Below are positions 38,489 through 48,966 of a stretch of DNA of 64,000 nucleotides, one piece after another. This DNA is from Pseudomonas hormoni. Lineage in GTDB: Bacteria > Pseudomonadota > Gammaproteobacteria > Pseudomonadales > Pseudomonadaceae. The position numbers and the translations under genes were made by a program. The DNA lies in assembly GCF_018502625.1 (NCBI RefSeq), contig NZ_CP075566.1, positions 749,001 through 813,000 on the forward strand, in the 5' to 3' direction. Within the stretch, counting starts at the first letter, position 1. Each line of letters opens with the position of its first letter. The notes below the pieces were generated by a model. It ran no database searches. It was given only the letters and a program-made list of their open reading frames with translations, and had not been told where the DNA came from.

Positions 38489-38607
38489 GGCGATTCCGTT
38501 GGCAGTAACCCGATGGCGAGCATTCTAGTGGGACTGCAGGGAAATAACTGCGGGATTTGTGGGGTGAATCGGTTGGGATAGGTTCAGTGGCGTCTGGGCT
38601 GACGCCA

Positions 38608-38670
38608 TCGCTGGCAAGCCAGCTCCCACAAGGACTGCGCAAAAACCTGTGGGAGCTGGCTTGCCAGCGA
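38608..38670. repeat. REP hairpin (GTGGGAGCTGGCTTGCCAG class)
   Basis: Inverted arms CGCTGGCAAGCCAGCTCCCA and its complement lie with a short spacer between the DGC gene and the guanidine operon 3' end. Confidence 0.85.
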
Positions 38671-38679
38671 ATCGTGAGA

Positions 38680-40452
38680 TCACCCCAGATCTTTCAGGTA
38701 CGCACGCCAACCGCCTAGATGGCTGATATTGACTGCCCCCTCCAACCCATATTGCTCACAGATAAACCCACTCTCCCAACGCCCATCCGCCAGTTGCACC
38801 TTGCCCAACCCCAACGGCGCCGGAATCCCGGTCAAAAACGACCCCAACTCACTGCTCGGCAACTCCCAGACCTCCACCGCAATCGCCACACCGCCATCCT
38901 TCACCCGCACCATCCCCGGACGAAATGGCGGGCCGCCGGCCAATGCATACAGCCGATAGTCCGGCGAACTGAACGTTGTCTCGACCAACGTCGCGCCGCG
39001 CCGCTTCAGTTGCCAGTTCAGCGCCAAGCCATCCAGATGCGCACCGCACACCACCAACCGAGCGCGATCATTGCGGGCGACTGCCGAAGAGGCAGGCGCA
39101 TCCGAACGACGCTGCAACGCATCCGCCACGCTCAACAAGTACTGATCGGTAAACGCCCGGCCAAACACCGTCACACCCCACGGCAAACCATTGCCCATGA
39201 ACCCGCTCGGCACCGCGACGGCAGCGTAATCGAGCAGGTTCATGAAGTTGGTGTAGTAGCCCAATTCCGAATTGCGCAGCACCGGTTCAGCCTCAAGTTC
39301 CGCCAACGTCACGGGACGGCCGATGGTCGGCGTGACCACACAATCCAGTCCCTCCAGCGCCTTGTCGCACAGGGCTTTCAAGGCTTGCAACCGATACTGC
39401 GCGCGGAACGTTTGCACGCCGCACACCGCTGGCGCCTTGGCCAACACGGCGCGAATCACCGGCAACACCGCTTCAGGGTTTTGCTCCATCAACTCACCGG
39501 CAACGCTGTAGCGCTCAGCCACCCACGGGCCTTCGTAAAGCAAACGCGCGGCTTCGAGAAACGGCGACATATCCAGTTCCACCGCTTCACCGCCCAACGC
39601 CTTGAGCTGATCGATGGCGTCTCCAAACAACAGCGGACCTTCAGGGCAACCGAAGAACTCCAGGTCCTGCGCACGCGGCACGCCGAAGCGGAAAGGACGC
39701 GGAATACCAAACGCCGAGCCGTCATTCCACAGCGGGTTGGCGCGGCTGTACTCATCCCGCGGATCAAGGTGTGCGGTGAGCGCCAGCAACTGGCTCGCCT
39801 CCCGCGCCGTCGCGGTAAACGTCGTGACGCAATCGAGCGTACGACACGCCGGCACCACCCCCGCCGTGGAGATCAACCCTTTGGTGGCTTTCATCCCCAC
39901 CAGATTGTTCAGCGCCGCCGGCACGCGCCCGGAACCTGCGGTGTCCGTGCCCAACGAAAAACTCGCCACCCCCAGCGCCACCGCCAGCGAGGACCCGGCG
40001 CTGGAACCACCCGACGGATACTCCGGCAACACGCTGTTCGGGCAGGCGCCATACGGCGAGCGACTGCCGTTGAGCCCGGTGGCGAACTGATCAAGATTGG
40101 TCTTGCCCAGCGGAATCGCCCCCAGCGCCAGCAACTGCTCGACGATGGTCGCCGACTGCTGCGGCACATAGGCAAACACCGGGCACGCCGCCGTGGTCGG
40201 AATGCCGGCCAGATCGATGTTGTCCTTGATCGCAAACGGCACGCCGTACAGCGGCAGGCTGTCGAGGTCCCGACCGTCGAGCGCGGCGAGGTACGGTTCC
40301 AGTTCTTCAACACTGAGCAAGTGGATGAACAGGTGATAGTCCGGGTTCAGCGCCGCGGCTCTATCGCGCAGGCTCAGCAGCAATTGACGTGGCGTGATGT
40401 TGCCGACGCGGTAAGCGCTGCGCAGGGCGTCGAGTTGTAGATTGATGGTCAT
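38680..40452 (-). CDS. atzF: Allophanate hydrolase
   Basis: The 590-residue enzyme hydrolyses allophanate to two ammonia and two CO2. It has an amidase-signature domain with the Ser-cisSer-Lys triad: Lys in FAIKDNIDLAG and the serines in GGSSAGSSLAVALGVASFSL, followed by the oxyanion-loop Gly/Ser-rich GTDTAGSGRVPA. The C-terminal domain (ARLVVCGAHLDGLALNWQL; YALAGGPPFRPGMVRV) is intact, as in full-length AtzF. It is the last gene of the riboswitch operon, 25 bp after the carboxylase gene. Confidence 0.95.
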   Translation of the reverse strand: MTINLQLDALRSAYRVGNITPRQLLLSLRDRAAALNPDYHLFIHLLSVEELEPYLAALDGRDLDSLPLYGVPFAIKDNIDLAGIPTTAACPVFAYVPQQSATIVEQLLALGAIPLGKTNLDQFATGLNGSRSPYGACPNSVLPEYPSGGSSAGSSLAVALGVASFSLGTDTAGSGRVPAALNNLVGMKATKGLISTAGVVPACRTLDCVTTFTATAREASQLLALTAHLDPRDEYSRANPLWNDGSAFGIPRPFRFGVPRAQDLEFFGCPEGPLLFGDAIDQLKALGGEAVELDMSPFLEAARLLYEGPWVAERYSVAGELMEQNPEAVLPVIRAVLAKAPAVCGVQTFRAQYRLQALKALCDKALEGLDCVVTPTIGRPVTLAELEAEPVLRNSELGYYTNFMNLLDYAAVAVPSGFMGNGLPWGVTVFGRAFTDQYLLSVADALQRRSDAPASSAVARNDRARLVVCGAHLDGLALNWQLKRRGATLVETTFSSPDYRLYALAGGPPFRPGMVRVKDGGVAIAVEVWELPSSELGSFLTGIPAPLGLGKVQLADGRWESGFICEQYGLEGAVNISHLGGWRAYLKDLG

Positions 40453-40477: not shown

Positions 40478-43400
40478 TCAGTCGAGTTCCAGCACCACGA
40501 CGCGCTGTCCGGCGCGCACCGCCGAACCCGGTTGCACGCGGATCTCGCGCACCACGCCGGCCATGGGCGCGAGCAGCGGAATCTCCATCTTCATCGACTC
40601 CAGAATCACCAGCACATCACCGGCGGCCACGCGGCTGCCGGTCTGCACCTGAACCTGCCAGAGGTTGCCGGCGATGTGGCTGTCGACGCTCATTTCACCA
40701 CTGGCCAGCGGTGCGTCTTCGGTGGTTTCCGGGGCCGTTTCTTCACTGTCGAAATGCGCCTGGCCGCTGGCGATCCAGCGCTCGCGCTCGGCGTTGAACG
40801 CGCCTTGTTGCTGCTCGCGAAACGCGGCGATGGTCTCGGCTTCTTTCGCCAGGAACGCCTGGTAATCCGCGAGGTTCAACTGGCTGTGCTCGATGTTCAA
40901 ATCGAAGCGACCGAGCGGGAAATCCCGGCGGATGCGCAGCAGTTCATCAGCGCTCACCGGGTAGAAACGGATCTGGTCGAAGAAGCGCAGCAGCCACGGT
41001 TTGCCATCGAACGCGGCGACTTCGCGGTAGCGGTTCCACATCTGCAACGTACGACCGACGAACTGATAACCGCCGGGACCTTCCATGCCGTACACGCACA
41101 TGTAGGCGCCACCGATGCCCACCGAGTTTTCCGCGGTCCAGGTGCGGGCCGGGTTGTACTTGGTGGTCACCAGACGGTGACGCGGGTCGAGCGGGGTGGC
41201 GACCGGTGCGCCTAGGTAAACGTCGCCCAACCCCATGACCAGATAACTGGCGTCGAACACCGTGCGCTGCACTTCGTCGAGGTTCGGCAGGTCGTTGATG
41301 CGGCGGATGAACTCCAGATTGCTTGGGCACCACGGCGCGTCCTTGCGCACGGTGGTCATGTATTTCTCGATCGCCAACTGGCAGGCCGGGTCGTCCCAGG
41401 ACAATGGCAAATGAACGATGCGCGACGGTACTTGCAGGTCCTTGGCGGCGCACACTGCGTCCCATTCACCGGCGACGATGCCGAGCAGATCGGTCAGCGG
41501 CAGTTGTTCGGGTTGGTAGTGCACTTGCAGTGAACGGATGCCCGGGGTGAGGTCGATTACGCCGTGCAGGGTTTTGCTTTCCAGGGCTTGCATGAGGGCG
41601 TGGGCGCGGAAGCGCAAAACAAGGTCAAGTTCCGGCGCACCGATTTCCAGGAGCAAATGCGTATCGCCCGAAAGACGTGCAACCAACCGCGTATCCCCCT
41701 GACCCAAATCCAACACCACCGGCGACACGATCCCTTGTGGGTACACATTTCCTGTGGCGAGCGAGCTTGCTCGCGCTGGGTCGCGAAGCGGCCCCAAATC
41801 CTGCAACCCGGTTGCTTCAGGCACACTGCATTCTGCTATCGGCGAGTGCTTCGCACTCGAGCGGGAGCAAGCTCCCTCGCCACAAAAGCGATGCGTTGCC
41901 AGTGAGCGGGCGGTTTTGAGATCGACGGGGAGGAACTGGACTTTGTCGCCAGCCTTGAGCTGCCCAAGCTGCCAAAGATCCGCCTCGATCACCGTCACCG
42001 GGCACACAAACCCACCCAGACTCGGACCGTCCGGCCCGAGAATCACCGGCATGTCCCCGGTGAAATCCACCGCGCCAATGGCATACGGATTGTCATGAAT
42101 ATTCGACGGATGCAGCCCCGCTTCACCACCATCAGCGCGCACCCATTCCGGCTTCGGCCCGATCAATCGCACGCCGGTGCGGCTGGAGTTGAAATGCACC
42201 TCCCACTGAGTCGCAAAGAAAGTGCCGATGTAGTTTTCGGTGAAGTATTCCGGTGCGCCATGCGGGCCGTAGATCACCCGAATCTGCCGCACGGCAGGCA
42301 GTTCAGCGATTTCAGACAGTTGTTCGCCGGCGCTTCGGTCGTTTAAGGCAGGCACATGCAACACGTCACCCGCGCGCAACGCCCGACCACCATGCCCGCC
42401 AAACTGGCCAAGGGTGAAGGTACTTTTACTGCCCAGATAATCCGGCACCTGCAGACCGCCGCGCAGGCACAGATAGCTGCGAGCGCCCGCACCGGCAATC
42501 GTCCCGAGGCTCAGCGTGGCACCGGCGGGAATCAGCAGCGCCGTGTTCATCGCGACGGTTTCACCGTTCAACGCCAGCGGAATCACTGCCCCAGTGATCG
42601 CCACCACGGCGTCGCAATTGAAGCGCAGCAACGGCCCGCTCATGGTGATTTCCAGGGCGGCGTCGCCTTCTTCGTTACCCAGCAAAAGGTTGCCCAAGCG
42701 CAGCGCGCGACTGTCCATCGGCCCCGATGGCGGCACGCCTACGGCCCAGTACCCAAGGCGTCCGGGGTAGTCCTGAACACTGGTCTGCGTACCGGCGCTG
42801 AGCACTTCAAACGTGTTGGCCTGATAGACCAGATGCTCGAGGCAGCGGGTCCACGGCTGACCGCTGGCGAACGGCGTATCGAGCAAAATCTGCCGCAGGT
42901 AATCGCGGTTGGTTTCCACACCGTAGAGCAGGCTGTCGCCCAATGCTTGATGCAGATCGGCACGCGCTTCTTCGCGAGTCGGCGCCCAGCAAATGACCTT
43001 GGCGATCATCGGATCGAAGTACGGCGGAATCTCGCAACCGGCCTCGACCCAGGTGTCGATGCGCAGCTGTTTGCCGTCGGCTGCAGGGAAGTTCACTGCG
43101 GTCAGCAAACCGGGGCTCGGCTGAAAATCACGCCCCGGGTCTTCCGCATACAGCCGTGCCTGAATCGCATGGCCGTCGGCTTTCAAGCCCTGGCTCAACA
43201 CGCTCAACGGCGGCAAATCCCCGGCCGCCAGTTCCACCATCCAGCGCACCAGATCCACGCCCCACACCTGTTCGGTGACGCCGTGCTCTACCTGCAAACG
43301 GGTGTTCACTTCCAGAAAGTAGAAACGCTGGTCTTCACTGTCGAAGACGAATTCCACGGTGCCGGCACTGCGGTAATTCACGGCTTTTGCCAGTTTGATC

Positions 43401-44173
43401 GCAGCGGCGCAAAGCGCTTCGGCCATTCCTTCGGGCAGGTTCGGCGCCGGGGTTTCTTCGAGAACTTTCTGGTTGCGGCGCTGCACCGAGCAATCGCGTA
43501 CGCCGAGGGCGATCACTTCACCGCGACCGTCGCCGAACACCTGAACTTCCAGGTGCCGTGCGCGCTGGATGTACTTCTCGATGAACACCCCGGCATCGCT
43601 GAAATTGTTCTGGCCGAGGCGTTTCACCGCTTCAAAGGATTCGCTCAACTCGGCCGCACTGCGGCACACACGCATGCCGATGCCACCACCGCCAGCGGTG
43701 CTTTTGAGCATCACCGGGTAACCGACCTGTTCACCGGCGATCAGCGCCGCGTCGAGGCTGTCGAGCAACTCGGTGCCTTCGAGCATCGGCACGCCGTGTT
43801 GTTTGGCCAATGCACGCGCGGTGTGTTTGAGGCCGAACACGCGCAGCTGTTCTGGCGTCGGACCGATGAAGGCGATGTCGGCGGCTTCGCAGGCTTCGGC
43901 GAACGCGGCGTTTTCCGAAAGGAAACCGTAGCCGGGATGGATCGCCGTGGCGCCGGTGGCCTTGGCGATGGCGAGGATTTTGTCGACCGCCAGGTAGGTG
44001 CCGGCCGCTGCGCCTTCACCGAGGCTGTGGGCTTCATCGGCTTGCAGAATGTGCAGGCTCGCGGCATCGGCTTCGGAGTACACGGCGACGCCGTTGACGT
44101 GCAGTTCACGCAGGGTGCGCAGGATGCGGCAGGCAATGGCGCCACGGTTGGCAATCAGGACTTTTTCGAACAT
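40478..44173 (-). CDS. Biotin-dependent urea/guanidine carboxylase with an in-frame REP insertion
   Basis: The 1231-residue enzyme uses ATP, bicarbonate and biotin to carboxylate its substrate. Domains in order: biotin carboxylase (about 1-450; MLKSTAGGGGIGMRVC, FLEVNTRLQVEHGVTEQVWG), KipA-like (AHS2) carboxyltransferase half (about 470-750), KipI-like (AHS1) half (about 815-1100) and BCCP with biotinyl-Lys in ILESMKMEIPLLAPMAG. At about residues 763-808 the linker is replaced by REP-encoded sequence (positions 41751-41885, exactly 135 bp, no stops). The riboswitch and DUF1989 partners make guanidine the likely true substrate; urea is the older name. Nearly identical domain core otherwise. 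Confidence 0.93.
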   Translation of the reverse strand: MFEKVLIANRGAIACRILRTLRELHVNGVAVYSEADAASLHILQADEAHSLGEGAAAGTYLAVDKILAIAKATGATAIHPGYGFLSENAAFAEACEAADIAFIGPTPEQLRVFGLKHTARALAKQHGVPMLEGTELLDSLDAALIAGEQVGYPVMLKSTAGGGGIGMRVCRSAAELSESFEAVKRLGQNNFSDAGVFIEKYIQRARHLEVQVFGDGRGEVIALGVRDCSVQRRNQKVLEETPAPNLPEGMAEALCAAAIKLAKAVNYRSAGTVEFVFDSEDQRFYFLEVNTRLQVEHGVTEQVWGVDLVRWMVELAAGDLPPLSVLSQGLKADGHAIQARLYAEDPGRDFQPSPGLLTAVNFPAADGKQLRIDTWVEAGCEIPPYFDPMIAKVICWAPTREEARADLHQALGDSLLYGVETNRDYLRQILLDTPFASGQPWTRCLEHLVYQANTFEVLSAGTQTSVQDYPGRLGYWAVGVPPSGPMDSRALRLGNLLLGNEEGDAALEITMSGPLLRFNCDAVVAITGAVIPLALNGETVAMNTALLIPAGATLSLGTIAGAGARSYLCLRGGLQVPDYLGSKSTFTLGQFGGHGGRALRAGDVLHVPALNDRSAGEQLSEIAELPAVRQIRVIYGPHGAPEYFTENYIGTFFATQWEVHFNSSRTGVRLIGPKPEWVRADGGEAGLHPSNIHDNPYAIGAVDFTGDMPVILGPDGPSLGGFVCPVTVIEADLWQLGQLKAGDKVQFLPVDLKTARSLATHRFCGEGACSRSSAKHSPIAECSVPEATGLQDLGPLRDPARASSLATGNVYPQGIVSPVVLDLGQGDTRLVARLSGDTHLLLEIGAPELDLVLRFRAHALMQALESKTLHGVIDLTPGIRSLQVHYQPEQLPLTDLLGIVAGEWDAVCAAKDLQVPSRIVHLPLSWDDPACQLAIEKYMTTVRKDAPWCPSNLEFIRRINDLPNLDEVQRTVFDASYLVMGLGDVYLGAPVATPLDPRHRLVTTKYNPARTWTAENSVGIGGAYMCVYGMEGPGGYQFVGRTLQMWNRYREVAAFDGKPWLLRFFDQIRFYPVSADELLRIRRDFPLGRFDLNIEHSQLNLADYQAFLAKEAETIAAFREQQQGAFNAERERWIASGQAHFDSEETAPETTEDAPLASGEMSVDSHIAGNLWQVQVQTGSRVAAGDVLVILESMKMEIPLLAPMAGVVREIRVQPGSAVRAGQRVVVLELD
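41751..41885. repeat. REP doublet inside the carboxylase gene
   Basis: A GTGGCGAGCGAGCTTGCTCG arm and an inverted GAGCAAGCTCCCTCGCCACA arm enclose inner elements CGCGAAGCGGCC and GCGAGTGCTTCGC. It is the same element class as the intergenic doublets, here read through as codons. The left arm has matched substitutions that keep its palindrome. Confidence 0.9.
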
Positions 44174-44274
44174 GGCATAGACCCCGGAGGGGATGCGGGC
44201 CGTCCCGCAGTTTTTCGATAAGCGCCAGGGTCGTCCCCGACGGCAGAATCAATTCTCTGACGAACAACACCGAA

Positions 44275-44368: not shown

Positions 44369-44461
44369 TTAGTGGTGGTCTGGAGATTTCAGGCACTGCC
44401 CGGAACGGGCCTGGCACAGGGCAAACAACCACCGCCGCAACCGCGAAAGTTTCAGTTCCAT
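44369..44461 (-). CDS. Candidate 30-residue coupled frame after the second DUF1989 gene
   Basis: An ATG at 44461 overlaps the end of the DUF1989 gene (ATGGAACTGA) and opens a 30-residue frame beginning [10 protein letters not shown] and ending SPDHH. The tight overlap is the only support; the REP doublet starts right after its stop codon. It may be chance. Confidence 0.25.
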
Positions 44462-45093
44462 ACTAATAACTCCGCAGGCGTAGGGTTGTAGGCATTGCAC
44501 GGATTGTTCAGCTGCGGACAGTTTGAAATCAGCACAATCACATCCATCTCCGCCCGTAAATCAACGTACTTTCCCGGCGCCGAAATCCCGTCTTCAAAGG
44601 TCAGCCCGCCATCCGCCGTGACCGGTACGTTCATGAAGAAATTGATGTTCGGCCCAATGTCGCCCTTGCCCAGTCGCCCGTCGTGGACGCAGGCGCGCAG
44701 GTAGTTGTCGCGGCAGCTGTGCATGTAGCGTTTCTCCAGCGCGTAACGCACGGTGTTGCTCTCTTGCGCGCAGGCACCGCCGAGGGTGTCGTGGCGACCG
44801 CAGGTGTCGGCGACGATGGTCAGCATCGGTTTGCCGAGGTTGGAATAGAGCACGCTACCGGTGCTCAGGTAGACGCTGTTTTGCCGGCGCAAGGTGCGTT
44901 GCACGTCGTAGCGTTCTTTCGGGTTGGCGACGCTGTAGAACAAGGTATCGACGGCCTGATTGCCTTCCAGGTCGAGGATGCGCAGGGTCTGGCCGGCCTT
45001 GACTTCCATCAGCCACGGTTCGCCGGCGGGGATGGTGGCGCGATAGACCGCCGTTTCTGGATGCTTTTGAGCGGTAGCGATTGCAAGTGACAT
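44452..45093 (-). CDS. DUF1989 protein, urea amidolyase-associated (carboxyguanidine deiminase subunit)
   Basis: The 213-residue protein belongs to DUF1989 (PF09347), the urea amidolyase-associated protein 2 type. Shared core motifs include [37 protein letters not shown] and [17 protein letters not shown]. In P. syringae two such proteins (CgdA/CgdB) form a carboxyguanidine deiminase that turns carboxyguanidine into allophanate. I cannot say which subunit letter applies. It is 11 bp from its DUF1989 partner on the same strand. Confidence 0.9.
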
Positions 45094-45104
45094 GGCAGCG
45101 ATCC

Positions 45105-45830
45105 TCAGGCGAACAGACGGTCGGTGTTGATGAAGCCGCGCTCGTTTTCCGGGCGCGAAGTGCGGCAGTGTTCGGCGACGCTGGCGTCGGCGTTCATCCA
45201 GCTCAGCTTCAAGGGTTTCGGTGCGTATTCTGGCGACGGGTCCATCGGGTGTTGCAGCGCGGTGAGCACCACCAGCGTGTCCATCGGTGCGTACAACTCG
45301 ATGTAGTCGCCGGCCTTGGAGTTGCCTTCAACGAAGTGGAAACGCCCGGCCTCATCGACATTCACGCGGCTGAACAGGTTGAGGGTCATCAGCAGATCCG
45401 ACAGGCCCAGACCCCACTTGCCGAGTTCCACCAACAGGTTGTCGGTGCCGTTGCGGAAGAAACCGTTGCGCAGTTCCTGATAGCGTCCCGCGCCGTATTT
45501 TTCCGCGACCTCTTCAGCGCAGAGCACGCCGCCGAGGCTGTCGCTCCAACCGCAGGTATCGGCGGTGATCGCCACCAGCACCCGGCCCATGTCCGAGTAC
45601 AGACAATGACCCGTGGTGAGCTTGGCGGTGTGTTGGCATTTGAGGCTGTCGGGCAGGTTCAGACGCTCGGTTTTTTCATTGGCGTTGAGCAGCGTCAGGC
45701 TGACGTTGGCGCCGCCGCGCAGGTCGGTGAGGCGCAGCAGTTGGCCGCGTTTCAGGACGAAGGAACGATGGCCGCCACCGGGGAGCATTTCTTCGGCGAA
45801 GGGCGGGAACAGTTGGGTCGAATCAGTCAT
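45105..45830 (-). CDS. DUF1989 protein, urea amidolyase-associated (carboxyguanidine deiminase subunit)
   Basis: The 241-residue DUF1989 protein is the urea amidolyase-associated protein 1 type: [20 protein letters not shown], then [40 protein letters not shown], and [20 protein letters not shown]. It pairs with the shorter DUF1989 protein 11 bp downstream, the arrangement of the heterodimeric carboxyguanidine deiminase. The Cys and Asp in DTCGWSD are conserved in both and are candidate metal or active-site residues. It follows the ABC ATPase gene. Confidence 0.9.
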
Positions 45831-48584: not shown

Positions 48585-48680
48585 CTTGTCTCCCGGGCTT
48601 TTGTCCCGCCGTGTAACCTCAACTGGAGGTCGCCAACTCTCGGACCAGTCACTCGCGTCAGCGAGCCGGAACCCTAGTCA
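48585..48680 (-). promoter_or_regulatory. Guanidine-I riboswitch (ykkC motif)
   Basis: The minus-strand leader has the conserved ykkC elements in order: CTAGGGTTCCGGC, a variable stem (CTCGC/GCGAG), ACTGGTCCGAGAG, a second variable stem (ACCTCCAGTTGAGGT), and ACACGGCGGGACAAAAGCCCG ending in GGGAGA. This is the guanidine-I consensus. It lies 60 bp before the substrate-binding protein gene. Guanidine binding prevents a terminator or otherwise turns the operon on. Confidence 0.95.
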
Positions 48681-48966
48681 GCCATTGCAAATTGTGGTGC
48701 CGCGAACCTGTGATGACTCCTGCACGGGTTTGTTAAAGCGAGAGCCGTGCCAAGTCGGCCGAAGCGCTCTGGGCCGAGGGATTGCCATTGGCTGGCAGGG
48801 TGGAAGGGCAGGTTTGTTGCTTTGTGATGGTGCGTCCGTGCACTGAGATGCAGCGTGGCTGGCCGCTGATCCGAAGGTCGGTTGCGTCCGGCACTCACCA
48901 TCGCATTTCCAGTCAAAACAGGTGTCAGCCGGCCCGTATCGGCTGCGGGTCTTTCAGGAGGCCGCC

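Follow-up and report, generated by a model that had tools for sequence, protein, structure and literature searches.

The guanidine/urea carboxylase of Pseudomonas hormoni contains a complete REP doublet that is read as part of the protein, and in most orthologues across the genus the equivalent linker between two carboxyltransferase domains holds a palindromic element as well, usually of a different REP family. REPs are usually regarded as extragenic and as rarely moving. We consider it probable that this inter-domain linker is a tolerant one, in which RAYT-type REP elements insert, exchange, expand and decay, filtered for reading frame. The window referred to below is the whole analysed stretch of 64,000 nucleotides of P. 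hormoni DNA (contig NZ_CP075566.1, positions 749,001 to 813,000 of the forward strand), and coordinates are positions within it.

The carboxylase gene and its neighbourhood

The following features surround the carboxylase gene.

40478 to 44173, reverse strand: guanidine/urea carboxylase gene, 1231 amino acids (1231 codons and one stop), assigned by TIGR02712 and Pfam
38680 to 40452, reverse strand: allophanate hydrolase gene, next gene downstream of the carboxylase
44195 to 44242, reverse strand: guanidine-II riboswitch, just upstream of the carboxylase
44452 to 45830, reverse strand: UAAP2 and UAAP1 genes, upstream of the carboxylase
48588 to 48688: guanidine-I riboswitch

The protein matches the TIGR02712 urea carboxylase profile over its full length (residues 2–1229) with 1877.6 bits, the cut-off being 1303.85. 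Pfam places BC at residues 1–446, CT_A_B at 478–747, CT_C_D at 833–1052 and the biotinyl domain at 1169–1228. Because of the neighbouring riboswitches of classes I and II, the allophanate hydrolase and UAAP1/UAAP2, the enzyme most likely serves as the pathway's guanidine carboxylase. In the solved structure of a yeast relative (3va7), the equivalent place comprises about 43 residues (793–837), which are omitted between the two matched halves.

Three further observations concern this locus. Two distinct classes of guanidine riboswitch (I at 48588–48688, II at 44195–44242) lie near one guanidine gene set. Two GTGGGAGCTGGCTTGCCAGCG-type REPs in outward orientation (window 38606–38670) adjoin the 3′ end of the allophanate hydrolase gene. 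The database names of the close relatives P0028, P0034, P0037 and P0125, which include KipI antagonist and D-alanine--D-alanine ligase, are misnamings of the carboxylase.

A REP doublet inside the reading frame

The element and its parts are located as follows.

41751 to 41885, reverse strand: in-frame REP doublet of family B with TGTGGCGAG heads, residues about 763–808
41860 to 41884, reverse strand: left REP in gene orientation, TGTGGCGAGGGAGCTTGCTCCCGCT, a 25-mer found identically beside the RAYT gene L309
41753 to 41777, reverse strand: right REP (gene orientation), differing from the family by a paired G/C change
41732 to 41741, reverse strand: CCCACAAGGG (gene orientation), recognised by eye; it may be what is left of an older GTGGGAGC-type REP at its right end

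The initial annotation had described a REP doublet read through in frame between the two carboxyltransferase halves. This description holds: the 135 bp are free of stops, code for residues about 763–808 and fill the linker between the Pfam domains CT_A_B and CT_C_D. Two details of that description were likewise confirmed. The same element recurs in the window, where seven doublets with TGTGGCGAG heads are present (the carboxylase copy and six others), and the arm at the low-coordinate end carries a paired substitution, reading GCGAGCTTGCTCGC instead of the family sequence GGGAGCTTGCTCCC.

The doublet consists of two inward REP arms that pair at 33 of 37 arm positions. Its inverted-repeat score is 47, compared with maxima of 18, 24 and 28 in sets of 20, 30 and 50 codon shuffles; these scores, together with the control windows described below, rule out a chance palindrome. 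The predicted RNA fold is one long hairpin (−75.3 kcal/mol, z −4.5), and two neighbouring gene stretches used as controls gave z values of −0.2 and 0.45. A sequencing or frame error is also ruled out, as relatives have the same family in frame. The element possesses the two inverted REPs around a spacer that mark a REP doublet or REPIN, but lacks the extragenic location of a REPIN. Since it lies in a coding frame, we term it a REP-derived in-gene doublet with the sequence of its family.

The short sequence CCCACAAGGG next to the doublet is possibly the stub of an older GTGGGAGC-type REP, because CTCCCACAGGG occupies the equivalent place in two relatives (L033 and L053). In L001, L031, L033 and L053, inspection by eye shows a CCCACAGGG-like stub after the B element; it would represent the end of an older A element.

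Copies in the P. hormoni genome and RAYT genes

Among 509 candidate places in a DNA search of the genome with the doublet, 40 were scored and yielded at least 82 matches. A census of the window together with 80 blocks of 20 kb each (1,664,000 bases, of which 3 kb are counted double) recorded 194 inward REP doublets of two head types. Scores were obtained for 193 of them, of which 14 belong to the window and 179 to the rest of the sample. The TGTGGCGAG head starts 89 of the 193 sampled doublets, in keeping with the high copy number of REPINs. A length divisible by three combined with at least one open frame was found in 79 of the 193, and 20 sit in a frame that stays open through them and for 60 codons beyond on both sides.

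The carboxylase copy is the single one of the 193 scored doublets with positive codon scores on both sides, and the view that it is unusual is thus borne out within this genome. None of the other 13 doublets of the window, of either type, has coding scores on both sides, and none of the 179 scored outside it lies between coding flanks. Among the other 19 open-frame doublets the best seven resemble, by eye, antisense shadow frames, and the remaining 12 scored lower. A search for REP-coded peptides in proteins of similar length, which is insensitive to other frames and families, gave five matches among 4243 candidates, all with carboxylase domains and one of them the query itself.

Two Y1_Tnp matches are present in the genome, L309 above the cut-off and L310 weaker. 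L309 bears on both sides a 25-nt REP identical to the left REP of the doublet; L310 is flanked by GTGGGAGC-type REPs (GTGGGAGCTGGCTTGCCAGCGATG REP), a type present in the linkers of relatives. The genome hence contains a cognate transposase with a matching REP, called a RAYT from its Y1_Tnp match, and enzymes of this kind would be the agents of insertion.

Occupancy of the linker across the genus

The even sample of the genus consisted of 159 genomes. At E <= 1e-60, 89 of them gave a match; 88 of these contain an orthologue, and G003 contains the paralogue only. A significant inverted repeat lies in the linker of 61 of the 88 orthologues, compared with 5 of 246 control windows of the same length from the same gene pieces (three each from 82 of the 88 pieces, with very short and very long linkers omitted). 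At least nine of the 27 linkers that fail the test show single or decayed REPs by eye (e.g. G077, G122, G160 and the interrupted G134), and the rest are mostly short and plain. Where neither the test nor visual inspection shows a REP, the linker spans about 6–39 residues in the coordinates used for this sample.

Linkers were also taken from 29 of 30 loci found in a search of 57 genomes, and from 80 named loci. The named set, the best 80 of 557 and biased to near relatives, has 72 of 78 linkers passing the test, L055 and L105 having been dropped as duplicates. The paralogous carboxylase has a linker of 33 residues, and a REP was found in 0 of 7 such linkers, five of them from genomes that also have the orthologue; an eighth (L312) gave no anchor. 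In the rows from other genera (L016, L025, L027, L028, L029) the test detected no linker repeat; L024 and L026 are the same genes as L317 and L318.

The initial annotation had read the P. hormoni element as an exapted copy. As a single event, this reading is unsupported, because 61 of the 88 orthologous linkers hold palindromic elements, mostly of another family. It had also named equally long, unrelated linkers without a REP as a case that would speak against it. The lengths are indeed matched, with many relatives having linkers of 37–65 residues, but most of these linkers are other REPs.

Element families and their probable exchange

By head sequence, the 61 passing linkers comprise 48 of family A, five of D, three each of B and E, one of C and one other; the linker elements belong to at least five head families.

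Family A: heads GTGGGAGC or GTAGGAGC; many stems, in 27 crudely cut stem classes
Family B: heads TGTGGCGAG; the doublet of the P. hormoni window
Family C: head GTAGGACCGG
Family D: head GTAGCCCGGATG
Family E: head CCCTCTCCC

Families A and D may form one superfamily in the sense used in parts of PMC3733652, since the letters GTAG are common to both heads. Families B, C, D and E were searched in their own genomes, and all four are multicopy, dispersed repeats. In whole-genome counts, which include both strands and partial matches, the C element of G022 has 88 matches in G022. The D element of G028 has 112 in G028, 81 in G014 and 80 in G144, and the E element of G075 has 75 in G075, 50 in G169 and 44 in G084. 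The linker of L221 (G008; also L013) has two different palindromic elements in series, one of the GTAGGA type and one of the GTAGCCCGG type. In L038, L057, L104, L080 and L034, a GTCGGATCG(C/T)CGCACCG-like or inverse stretch lies within one arm of the REP doublet, perhaps as an element nested in an element.

Elements are swapped between near-identical flanks. Among 33 pairs of loci with at least 92% identity over 600 flanking bases (nine rows omitted, namely two duplicates, L016 and L024–L029), the insert identity is below 0.70 in 17; one of these pairs (L018/L019) is without a REP, and in another (L011/L094) the difference is mainly one of length. In both L007/L008 and L039/L048, almost matching outer bases and heads enclose different elements. 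In Pseudomonas vancouverensis, P0015 has a B element and P0115 an A element between flanks that are 98.7% identical over about 600 residues (from a comparison of 122 protein rows with both anchors, of 125). Size changes as well: the linker of L227 (G115) is an in-frame tandem array of eight 36-residue units and a partial ninth within an open frame of 1516 codons, that of P0002 has 193 residues, and the B element of L053 has, by eye, collapsed in frame.

As related bacteria have many different repeats at this place, the linker appears to be a long-standing site of arrival for them. Some of the variety may be due to allele exchange between strains, since the left flank of B-type linkers (like SLATQxxC) differs from the LALKWDxxC of A-type linkers.

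Based on this dataset, we hypothesize that the CT_A_B/CT_C_D linker of the Pseudomonas guanidine/urea carboxylase tolerates added residues. REP doublets, spread by RAYT (Y1) transposases, would land in it repeatedly and swap for one another, and only copies that leave the frame open would survive. Their later fate would be replacement by another element, tandem expansion, or decay via in-frame deletion. In the window, a doublet of the TGTGGCGAG family seems to have displaced an older GTGGGAGC-type element, of which the stub would remain.

The insertion junction

One finding stands against pure tolerance: in one clade, the starting base of the element is nearly shared among families A, D and E. 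Seven of 8 A elements, all 4 D elements whose D head comes first (a fifth D linker, that of G008, has another REP first) and 2 of 3 E elements begin no more than 1 nt apart, and in this clade the starts mostly follow CTC or CTT. This may suggest a target-specific hotspot, in which a target favoured by REP transposases lies in the linker, so that different families would share one entry point. Cleavage by TnpAREP enzymes occurs at C|T, as described in part of PMC8266576, which would fit. In the P. hormoni genome, REP heads are bordered at each end by four bases rich in C and poor in G, and the left sides of the linkers show the same pattern. However, the C-rich tract may be part of the element itself, because it is symmetric at both ends, and an exchange of element for element preserves the junction without any target preference. 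Moreover, the E element begins 9 nt later in G084 and in the interrupted G134, the A element of G141 begins 24 nt earlier, and the start position varies elsewhere in the genus. The junction data keep a site-specific reading possible, short of proof, and we regard such a hotspot as unlikely.

Constraint on the encoded peptide

In 14 pairs with a common element (some loci reused), the pooled pN/pS is 0.59 for the insert (pN 0.068, pS 0.116) and 0.09 for the flanks (pN 0.025, pS 0.290). Differing sites number 12 of 700 in the arms and 47 of 510 in the centres. Hence, purifying selection acts on the flanking enzyme, the encoded peptide faces little constraint as such and may be neutral, and the palindromes stay near consensus. 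Loss of function is ruled out by the low pN/pS of the flanks. The earlier suggestion that the protein may be impaired finds no support, given this ratio of 0.09 and a TIGR02712 score of 1877.6 against the cut-off of 1303.85. The flexible loop that was also proposed is likely, but the AlphaFold model behind it is weak (mean pLDDT 62.3 for the CT part, from 22 sequences). The insert has a pLDDT below 50 and no secondary structure, which counts little, because other parts of the model are equally poor.

Conservation of the arms is compatible with renewal from the genomic family, and selection on the hairpin would be compatible with it too. A selected function of the hairpin or the peptide, such as translation pausing between domains or spacing, would agree with the high occupancy (61 of 88), with the strong RNA hairpin (z −4.5) and with arms that differ far less than the synonymous sites of the gene. 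Several orthologues nevertheless have short, plain linkers, the paralogue manages without an element, and both the peptides and their lengths are highly variable. Arm conservation, moreover, is also expected if copies are renewed from the genomic family. We therefore give a selected function little chance of being correct.

Ancestry of the inserts

On a quick tree computed without the linker, the families need at least 23 changes and the stem classes 52. Support for this tree is weak, with 11 of 85 inner branches well supported, and these branches force only six changes for family A and one each for B, D and E. A single ancestral insertion, followed by divergence and allele exchange without new insertions, would explain why 46 of 48 A-type linkers have their first head in frame 0, at a similar position, and why alleles of the same kind recur in separated strains. 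The heads and stems of B, C, D and E differ, however, each matching repeats of its own genome, and G008 (L013) has two different elements in series. For changes between families, the repeat matches speak against an ancestral insertion, which may hold within family A; as an account of the whole it appears quite improbable.

A one-off exaptation or damage in the P. hormoni strain, which the rarity of the copy among the REP doublets of the genome might suggest, is contradicted by REPs in the equivalent linker of relatives and by the purifying selection on the flanks, and is almost certainly wrong.

Relation to known repeats in coding sequences

REPINs and REP doublets of P. fluorescens (Bertels and Rainey 2011, PMC3116915) are described in parts of that paper as inverted REPs around a spacer, in high copy number, with RAYT genes that have matching REPs. 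The P. hormoni doublet agrees with these features. Unlike those extragenic REPINs, the carboxylase element is read as protein and varies inside the frame. REPs of the GTAG/CGTC kind inside ORFs of several species, often with 20–30 encoded residues and in clusters with 43–82, are reported in the main text of PMC3733652, as are two Xanthomonas species whose recB genes contain different REPs at roughly the same place. The carboxylase case is similar in having in-gene REPs, with different ones at about one site. It differs from the cases given there in that a single linker carries elements in 61 of the 88 sampled orthologues, drawn from at least five head families and swapped between near-identical flanks. 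The words carboxylase and urea are absent from that main text.

Rickettsia palindromic elements are inserted in protein-coding frames, and a single orthologous site can hold different RPE groups, according to portions of PMC3767692 and PMC10969869. PMC3767692 weighs a hotspot against common origin in the part concerned, and favours common origin for RPE-4, -6 and -7. The likeness, palindromes in frame with different groups at one site, is one of working only. The host is another one, and the linker elements match repeats of their own genomes, which points to new elements. Enterobacterial RU/ERIC-like sequences are, in sections of PMC2759123, small mobile repeats giving in-frame peptides. The REPs described here likewise supply in-frame peptides, in one enzyme linker as opposed to the many different genes of the RU/ERIC-like cases there. 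In the openly licensed literature we found no report of REPs in guanidine/urea carboxylase, nor of genus-wide, multi-family REP turnover at one enzyme linker.

Implications

The linker may be a natural cassette site, at which unrelated REP families enter and swap at a fixed junction inside a live frame; we put this forward tentatively and with considerable doubt. If true, bacteria of the genus would maintain a protein segment whose sequence comes from the mobile palindrome that happens to occupy the cassette site at the time.

One protein linker across many species offers a countable, frame-filtered record of the arrival, exchange, tandem growth and decay of REPs, and a site where REP exchange is testable. 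The case illustrates how an enzyme absorbs mobile DNA as variable loop sequence.
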